64,000 nt of DNA, from positions 13,634,447-13,698,446 of the forward strand of contig OX459100.1 in NCBI GenBank assembly GCA_949775045.1, written 5' to 3'. Under the pieces are notes generated by a model that had not been told where the DNA came from, ran no database searches, and was given only the letters and a program-made list of their open reading frames with translations. Of the stretch, positions 13,984-30,296 are shown one piece after another. The position numbers and the translations under genes are program-made. This DNA is from Metridium senile. Its lineage: Eukaryota > Cnidaria > Anthozoa > Actiniaria > Metridiidae. Position 1 is the stretch's first letter. The number at the start of each line of letters is the position of its first letter.

Positions 13984-16900
13984 TTAGAGTTTAAAAAAGA
14001 AAGATGTTTTCCTGTTGCCAGGGCTATGCCCACCACTACTGCTGTTGTTGACAGATTTCTTAGAGTGAAGTGATGTTTCATTCAAGAACCCTGAAACTCG
14101 AAGTCGTTCGGACAACTGGGAGCTTACAGAAGGAGTTCTAGATAATCTGCTGCTACGCGCAGGCGCGTTTGGCGCATAAAATCGACAGATACTATCATCA
14201 GTAACAGTCGATGGTGGTACTTCTACGCATGCGCCAACAAGTTGGGGATGCTCTGTTAGGAGTTGAACGAGGCTGTACGGAGTTGGGCGGTCAAGATAGT
14301 TAAACCGCCAACACAAACGAAGTAGGTTTGCCCTGTGAGAGAAACAATATACAAGTATTATTGGAACAACCAGTTATTTCATTTTAATTTTGTAAGAAAA
14401 AAGATAACATTTTTTTTTTGAAAATTAATAAGAATTGAGCTTCAATCTGGGGGTCATTAGTATGAATAACCGAATTAAGGCGGTTGTCTTATACTGCAAT
14501 CAAACCAGCGACAATAGAGTGCAAACATTAAAAGCGTGCAACAAAATGAGTACTAAATAGTGATATTTTATACTATTTCTATTGTTTTCTATTGTTTAAT
14601 TAGCACTATTTAGTACTAATTAGTACTACTTGTCTCACGGTTATATTGTTTGCACTCTAGCATACAATATAATAATATATTATACCAAATAAACCAAGGT
14701 TGTTGCGTTAAACGTATACAGTCATTTGAAAAAACATTGTCGCCGACCGGTACCGCGACTACGCGACTAGCCCAAGCGGGAGTATGGGTAAAAATCACTG
14801 ATGAAGCAATAAATGTTTAGCACGTGCTAAAGAATATGCTGAAATATAGCGTGTACATGAATGAATATGAGCAAATAAATAAACCGTTGTATAGAGCATG
14901 GAGATATTGACAAGTAAATAGCTACCCTCTTCGGTTTTCATGCAGAGGATTTGTGTCATCCAACTCAATTGACAGCGTAAATCTAATAGAAACAAGGCAC
15001 TGAGCTGAGAGCTCAAGATGTTGATAATATATGCAGCTTACTGCTTCAGTGATTTCTACCCATACTCCTTTAACTCCTTTAAGGTCTAGGCTCGTAGTCG
15101 AGAGGCCGGTCAGCGACAACGTTTTCTCAAATGACTACCAAATAAGGACATTGTAGCTACCTTGTCGAAATAATGTGTTATTTGTATCAACTTACATTGG
15201 TTCGGAGCTTTGCTGTGGTATTTCTAAGATATTTCCATCTTTAACGTACTCTAATACAACCTGGTTTGTAGCCCCTTGATAAGGGAAGCCACCAAACGTC
15301 GCCAGCTCCCATAAAGTAATTCCAAAGGACCAGACATCTGATTGGGTAGTAAACAAACCCTCCGTAATGGCTTCTGGTGCCATCCATCGTATGGGTAGAG
15401 CACCTGATCACAAGACAATATTGAGTTTAAAGCGGCCTGGTCAAACGGCTATGATAGTTGATGATAGTTGAAGGCGTTCCTACTATCATCAACTATCCTG
15501 TACGCGCAGTCAAACGGCAAAAACTATCATCGACTATCATGTGAAATTTGAACATTTTCAAACTCTAAGATAGTCCATGACAGTCGATGATAGTGCATAA
15601 TAGTTGGTGGTCAAACGCACATGATAGTTGGAACTATCATGAACTATCATGAACTATCATTGCCGTTTTACCGGGGCTTAAGTTTGCAGTGACATCAGTT
15701 AAGATTATCAAGACAACTATTCACGTGTCTCTATTATAGCAAGGTCGACGTTCGACTCGCTTCAACTCAAAGGCCCGGCTACCTTTCAAGATGGCGCAGG
15801 GAACTTTGAAGGAGACTATTCTCTATCGAGTTTGTATATAGGTGTTCTAATAAATGAACAATATCATTCGACATCGTATGAAACATGGGTAGTTGGTGTG
15901 AATTAAGTTGTCGAAAACTCACCTTTTCTTTCAAAGCGATAGTAGTCTTTAATGTTCAACTGTCTTGCCAAACCAAAGTCTCCAATCTTGATAACATTTC
16001 CAAGACCAACCATACAGTTGCGCAATGCTAGATCTCTGGACATACAAATAAGAACTATGTCAGCTACATAGAGAGAGAACAATTTTTTGTGAGAATAGTA
16101 CTTAAAGCTTAGTAACTGTGAATGCATTCACTTATTTTCAATAGCAACTGTTTTTTAGCTAAAAGTTAATCGCCCTTCGCATTTGAAACAGTGTAGGTCC
16201 AGTTTCGTGATGTATATTACCGCTGCATTGTTTGACAAAGGGCGCATTTGCACACGGTAAGATTCGATTTGTTGTCAAAATATTCAAAAATTTCAAACAA
16301 AGCACGAAAAAAGAATATCGTCTAACAATAGAAAACAAATTTAAATTTACTCTGAATTGAGGCTATATCCCTGTGCTATGCCTGAGTGCGCTTTTTGTCA
16401 AATAGTAAAGCGGTGCTAGATAAAATGAAACTGGTCTATTAAAACCCTAGAGTCTTGAGAGAGAATTTATTTGGATAAATAACTTGTACGAATAAACGAG
16501 AATGCGTAGTGTTGAAAAAAATAAAAAAAACAAGCAGTGTACTCTGTCGAGTTATAGATCAGGCGGGATTTTATGAAAACGAGGGATACCAGCGTTAGGA
16601 GTGGCAGGTTGATTATCGAGTCTTTTATTTCTTTTATTAAATATTCAAGAGCTAAAACTAAACCAATGAACGTTCCGTGCTCTGTTGAGTTACAGAGAAT
16701 GCTTCTCAGCCAATTGATATCAATTGTGAAATAAATAAAGGAATAACAAACCTGTGTACATATTTGTTCTGTGATAGATAATGCAGACCCTTGGCAATGT
16801 CTAAAGCCATTCTGGTGAGGTTGGATGATGTCACTTCTTCAGCCTGCAGACAAGAGACACCTTAATACTTTACATGATTCATGATTTAGATGTGACAGTA

Positions 16901-30296: not shown

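Follow-up and report, generated by a model that had tools for sequence, protein, structure and literature searches.

Which part of a Venus kinase receptor (VKR) reads which ligand? This question is touched by a gene on the minus strand (30296 to 13984) of a 64,000-nucleotide stretch of the sea anemone Metridium senile (contig OX459100.1, positions 13,634,447 to 13,698,446), here called the window. VKR ligands are disputed: the available parts of published accounts (among them PMC4522560 and PMC4038586) give arginine for the receptors of bee and Anopheles, a neurohormone for that of Aedes and, of the two schistosome receptors, arginine for one and calcium for the other. The published accounts examined, as far as their accessible text goes, put all of these ligands on the flytrap. 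As judged from its sequence, the gene in the window is a complete-looking cnidarian VKR, and its ectodomain very probably consists of two bilobed folds in series, a type-2 fold of the OpuAC/glycine-betaine kind (aa ~29-383) and a GABA-B-type type-1 flytrap (aa ~392-800). Beyond one odd gene, this suggests a second binding fold, undescribed in the literature examined, across a receptor family with disputed ligands. The second bilobed domain is shared by the sampled cnidarians, molluscs, nemertean and arthropods (and, as residue numbers indicate, by schistosomes), which makes the ligand question testable. Since VKRs have reproductive functions in schistosomes and Aedes, the location of the ligand site matters beyond cnidarians.

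The receptor encoded in the window

The gene is assembled from 18 exons in one frame, as the sequence-only reading had it: all 17 introns are GT-AG, all splice phases are compatible, and the only stop of the 1269-residue frame is the terminal one. That reading had also called the gene a VKR with a flytrap and a complete kinase, and this is borne out by Pfam matches to ANF_receptor at residues 417-767 (3.8e-44) and PK_Tyr_Ser-Thr (PF07714) at residues 911-1177 (2e-86). The flytrap is of the GABA-B type and has the conserved serine of the amino-acid site (GPACS, Ser475). A signal peptide and a single transmembrane helix are recognized by eye. The intact kinase, which we take to be insulin-receptor-like, has the glycine loop and the VAVK, HRDLALRN, DFG, DYY and PIRWMAPE motifs, its YY motif included. 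Flytrap, single membrane helix, kinase and amino-acid-site serine are all shared with SmVKR1/2, AmVKR, AaeVKR and SgVKR. The closest protein is one from the sea anemone Actinostola.

An OpuAC-type domain in front of the flytrap

Searching with the flytrap part gave 97 proteins, 4 of them GABA-B-like and 93 VKR-type (a few without kinase). Five of the 97, from the corals Oculina and Montipora among others, bear a precomputed Pfam OpuAC annotation; the domain is therefore undescribed in the literature examined, not invisible. When 14 VKRs were rescanned for OpuAC, five exceeded the cut-off (E 7e-6 to 4e-8), four matched more weakly (E 4e-4 to 0.042) and five gave no match. A profile of 14 N-termini, compared with all PDB sequences, gave ten matches at E<=10, the best being TmoX (4xz6, 2.1e-14). 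Six of them have E below 0.05 and either bind glycine betaine, choline, trimethylamine N-oxide (TMAO) or dimethylsulfoniopropionate (DMSP) or, as the OpuA transporter, contain such a binder; the remaining four, at E 0.33 to 0.75, are not related. With seven non-cnidarian N-termini TmoX was again found (9.6e-10), and the other three matches, though weak (E 0.11 to 0.24), belong to the same family.

The two-lobed fold was seen on the structure model of a wasp relative (P0098), in which Foldseek recognizes a full, predicted type-2 periplasmic-binding fold. Among the 50 matches listed, the first OpuAC-family entries rank above a few other type-2 binders and a phosphoribosyltransferase. The window is joined to this model by homology: it matches the shared N-terminal profile at 530 bits, being itself one of the seven sequences of that profile. 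The same profile has no match in the 4 GABA-B-like proteins or in 82 shuffled N-termini. Chance resemblance to OpuAC was rejected on these controls, on the PDB profile matches and on the fold of the wasp model. The earlier proposal of a glycine-betaine-type, bilobed region before the flytrap is thus upheld by way of the relatives, through TmoX and P0098.

With respect to the binding site, TmoX contacts its ligand through Trp55, Trp102, Phe106, Glu131, Trp177, Phe220 and Trp222, according to the accessible part of PMC8918994. In the profile-TmoX alignment the chain positions fit the published numbers for Trp102, Phe106, Glu131, Phe220 and Trp222. Two of the four cage tryptophans are thereby mapped, the first-lobe one weakly (Trp55 and Trp177 are not mappable), and at these two positions the window has one Trp and one Phe. 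Across 82 aligned N-termini, Trp occupies the Trp102 position, subject to that weak first-lobe mapping, in 75 and the Trp222 position in 66, the latter position being aromatic in 73. An ExW motif, whose Glu lies two residues ahead of the Trp102 position, retains this Glu in 77; W375 (in the numbering of the Oculina protein P0005) is kept in 81 and W386 in 80, and the Glu131 position is occupied by Phe in 65. The aromatic cage may therefore be partly kept and the hydrogen-bonding acid not. Compared with the bacterial binders TmoX, DmpX, OpuAC, ProX and ChoX (PF04069), the VKR domain differs by its fusion to a receptor kinase, by several cysteines conserved in the alignment and by the absence of Glu131.

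Several observations weigh against an OpuAC-type domain with a working pocket in the window protein. In Pfam, this protein does not match OpuAC (PF04069) at E<=10, so that its domain assignment rests on homology to relatives. Scans of single exons likewise failed to show the OpuAC relationship, and the window domain alone gave three phmmer matches in PDB, none related (best E 0.045). The fold search used the wasp protein and not that of the window. A type-2 or OpuAC-like match from structure prediction and Foldseek had been named as evidence that would support the proposal: an OpuAC-family fold was returned for the wasp model, and the listed matches of a coral model were taken up by flytrap entries. 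The similarity lies mainly in the second lobe: the TmoX match runs from there to the end of the domain and covers the first-lobe ExW and GW region weakly, with only about 2 bits. Hence Trp102 and Glu131 are mapped only weakly, and the evidence for the first lobe is the structure model. Finally, Glu131 of TmoX is kept in none of the 82 N-termini, and the window has Ala for the ExW Glu and Phe at the Trp222 position.

An ordinary part of the VKR ectodomain

The domain had been regarded as an extra on the VKR architecture, a view that does not hold. Judged by length alone (340-500 residues before the flytrap), the whole domain is present in 81 of the 93 VKR-type relatives, and all 81 match the N-terminal profile; the 75 that lay outside the profile do so at E<=1.6e-22 (search of 82 sequences). 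Twelve late-starting or cut proteins, in which the flytrap is preceded by fewer than 340 residues, were set aside first and checked afterwards. Eleven of them match the profile in part (E<=1.2e-23), and P0093, truncated into its flytrap, does not match it. The named sources of the VKR-type relatives include corals, Nematostella, molluscs, a nemertean, chelicerates, crustaceans and insects, and the presence of the same extension in other cnidarians, which had been put forward as a check, is confirmed by the N-terminal profile for corals and Nematostella. Being whole in 81 and partial in 11, the domain is no addition but normally forms the N-terminal half of a VKR ectodomain. On sequence grounds, then, the OpuAC-like domain is general in VKRs.

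Published receptors can be connected to this distribution. The available text of PMC5601475 gives a locust VKR of 1277 aa, verified by PCR and Sanger sequencing; Schistocerca americana P0037, of equal length, carries the domain. In Schistosoma, the flytrap serines are residues 466 and 410 (PMC4038586, in part), and the amino-acid-site serine is flytrap position 66 (PMC3703292, in part), from which about 400 and 345 residues would precede the flytrap. Searching proteins with the N-terminal profile gave five matches, namely a wasp VKR piece, three similar pieces and exon 6 of the window gene. A free-standing animal OpuAC protein was not found among the 8000 word-sharing candidates scored.

What did stand of the claimed novelty concerns the VKR literature examined. 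A domain before the flytrap is not described in the accessible portions of PMC3703292, PMC2680970, PMC4026697 and PMC4522560, nor in those of PMC5601475, PMC6401105, PMC4888303 and PMC4038586, all of which name flytrap, helix and kinase. In the open-licence literature, nothing relevant was found that pairs VKRs or receptor tyrosine kinases with OpuAC or glycine betaine, although a description elsewhere is possible.

Ionotropic glutamate receptors likewise bear type-1 and type-2 binding folds in one chain, but there the type-1 fold comes first, the output is a channel, and the type-2 domain comes from another family. The class C G-protein-coupled-receptor-like proteins of the fungus Allomyces, according to the accessible part of PMC3251606, also have an OpuAC domain in their N-termini; these are, unlike VKRs, seven-helix receptors.

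A second cnidarian clade

A maximum-likelihood tree was built from flytrap plus kinase (24 rows, the window and 23 of the 97; 677 columns). In a preceding FastTree tree, 24 flytrap-kinase rows separate from three GABA-B-like rows and include proteins of Anopheles gambiae, Schistocerca and Nematostella, presumably the published VKRs of these species. In the maximum-likelihood tree the cnidarian VKRs form a fully supported group, with Nematostella and corals in clade A (support 100/99), apart from clade B, which consists of the window, the Actinostola protein P0001 and the proteins P0002 and P0003 (support 100/100). The window gene and Nematostella P0009 thus belong to different clades. Both Actinostola and Nematostella belong to the Actiniaria; a tree constrained to unite the window, P0001 and P0009 was rejected by the approximately unbiased (AU) test (p 2e-5), with the limit that this group follows taxonomy but was chosen after that first FastTree tree had been seen. 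The simplest reading of these sequences is that a VKR duplicated before the sea-anemone families diverged. Within the 64-kb window no further copy of the gene was found.

The two clades also differ in the putative pocket. The Trp222 position is F, F, L and S in the four members of clade B, and Trp in all six of clade A. In clade B, Trp is present at the Trp102 position in all four; P0002 and P0003 retain the ExW Glu, which is replaced by Ala in the window and P0001. With its pocket changed, clade B may well have a different ligand from the other cnidarian VKR.

Possible roles of the second fold

In other VKRs, arginine or another amino acid works via the flytrap and activates a dimeric kinase, as stated in the accessible text of PMC4026697 and PMC4522560. 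By extension from these receptors, an amino acid would close the flytrap, the dimer would rearrange, and the kinases would then trans-phosphorylate on the YY motif. The OpuAC-like domain could set the sensitivity of the flytrap or the state of the dimer, and its ligand might be a small cationic solute or, in arthropods, it might form part of the neuroparsin site. That the domain is such a second ligand-responsive module, acting on flytrap or dimer, seems to us only slightly less than an even chance. The VKR family may in that case read two signals instead of one. It could be imagined, more specifically, that VKRs are two-input kinases in which the OpuAC-type domain binds a ligand of its own (in marine animals a methylated osmolyte, for instance TMAO, betaine, choline or DMSP; in arthropods neuroparsin) and gates the flytrap, and that after a duplication of the receptor in cnidarians the first pocket was retuned in clade B. 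As one joint claim this is doubtful; if it were true, nutrient and osmolyte or hormone signals would be merged in one chain.

It is quite possible, if short of probable, that the domain, though of OpuAC fold, binds no ligand and serves as a rigid spacer or dimer contact, with its cleft closed or decayed. The missing Glu131 would fit this, as would the residues other than Trp at the Trp222 position in the four clade B proteins and in pearl oyster P0012, and the conserved cysteines suggest a module stiffened by disulfides. Furthermore, when the flytrap serine of schistosome VKR1 is changed, the need for arginine rises about a thousandfold (PMC4038586, in its accessible part), so that the arginine response is carried by the flytrap. 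A mere spacer is harder to reconcile with aromatics that are strongly conserved across the sampled phyla (the Trp102 position, W375 and W386) and with a modelled fold that appears complete, with two lobes and not one. An intermediate arrangement, in which the domain senses osmolytes in most VKRs and has lost this role in clade B, is unlikely. The substitutions at the Trp222 position, set against the constant Trp of clade A, and the Ala of the window and P0001 in place of the ExW Glu would agree with a lost role; yet the case is built on four sequences, stacking on a cation remains available to Phe, the Trp102 position remains Trp throughout clade B, and P0002 and P0003 keep the Glu.

The domain could also be a docking site, in arthropods for the neuroparsin hormone OEH and in cnidarians for another secreted protein, with the flytrap sensing amino acids. 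The mosquito VKR binds OEH, a review (PMC4522560), in its accessible text, goes no further than to suggest a flytrap that takes both kinds of ligand, and a second ectodomain module offers a separate hormone site. We nevertheless regard this as improbable, for the domain is present in molluscs and cnidarians, whereas neuroparsins are, in the available parts of PMC4522560 and PMC4888303, known from arthropods only. The weights given here to sensor, structural and docking roles, in descending order, are a matter of judgement. Scarcely credible is the suspicion that two adjacent genes were fused by error, with exons 1-5 belonging to a secreted solute-binding protein and exons 6-18 to an ordinary VKR. 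The order is identical within one protein in 81 relatives, and exon 6 itself codes for the last 89 residues of the OpuAC-like domain. The junction 23369/22677 falls within one continuous domain in relatives, including Actinostola P0001. The two-gene model was rejected on the alignment of P0001 across this junction, on the single-chain relatives and on the length of the verified locust VKR.

Exon structure of the gene

The chain of exons is followed by several relatives in tblastn. P0001 covers exons 3 to 16. Along the gene, 11 to 15 segments align for each of P0003, Nematostella P0009, horseshoe crab P0027 and nemertean P0050, and six for coral P0005, which stops after the membrane helix. Exon 1 (30185..30296) has the start codon, the signal-peptide-like hydrophobic stretch and the first Cys (aa 29) of the N-terminal domain. 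Exon 2 (27240..27453), aligned by tblastn with P0003 and P0005, codes for first-lobe sequence of the OpuAC-like domain. Exon 3 (26310..26426, with corrected start) contains PAVWV, the Trp of which aligns with TmoX Trp102.

The correction of exon 3 shortens the protein from the 1325 residues first given to 1269. The gap of 56 residues corresponds exactly to the 168 bases that separate acceptors 26594 and 26426, so that the earlier model is taken to have started exon 3 at 26594. From LGYEN to PAVWV the spacing is 43 residues with acceptor 26426 and 99 with acceptor 26594; the corresponding LGY-to-xVW spacing in the 82 aligned N-termini has a median of 42.5 and a range of 36-76. The longer exon was rejected on this spacing and on its added residues, which are without counterpart (best phmmer E 0.34 against the 97 proteins). 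A 143-bp perfect TA run (26662-26804) and a 1-kb CAT-type repeat (25302-26268) flank exon 3, and long low-complexity open frames run into it.

Exon 4 (23996..24240) holds the GRYSWF and DHWRSL region with conserved cysteines, and exon 5 (23369..23564) codes for second-lobe sequence with FATFEPG, its Phe being at the Trp222 position. Exon 6 (21729..22677) completes the OpuAC-like domain (to WSPWIP, base 22413) and carries the first part of the flytrap, GPACS included; the remainder of the flytrap is found in exons 7-9 (21457-21197, 20993-20866, 19949-19711). The juxtamembrane segment and the single transmembrane helix (about aa 845-868, by eye) are encoded by exons 10-11 (19544-19449, 19154-19100). 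Tyrosine kinase and C-terminal tail are divided over exons 12-15 (18481-18229, 18004-17884, 17193-17132, 16843-16752) and 16-18 (16035-15923, 15403-15196, 14332-13984). Two introns contain repetitive sequence: an AT-rich stretch in intron 1 (29240-29660) has many imperfect ATTCGATT-type words, and intron 8 has a 76-bp tandem repeat of 4.3 copies with 98% match (20448-20771).

Other features of the window

On the minus strand, a 448-aa open frame at 8172-9518, with a signal-peptide-like stretch recognized by eye, has no Pfam match at E<=0.01, and a long FVCLFVCL repeat runs across two open frames at 7398-7995. A trypsin-like serine protease segment (32320-32850, minus strand; PF00089, 3e-37) covers the second part of its profile and is therefore probably one exon of a larger gene. 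On the plus strand, overlapping open frames at 40590-47105 resemble pieces of retroelements, with endonuclease and reverse-transcriptase-like words recognized by eye, and a 371-aa open frame of the galactosyltransferase family lies in one piece at 56901-58016 (PF01762, 2.6e-42).
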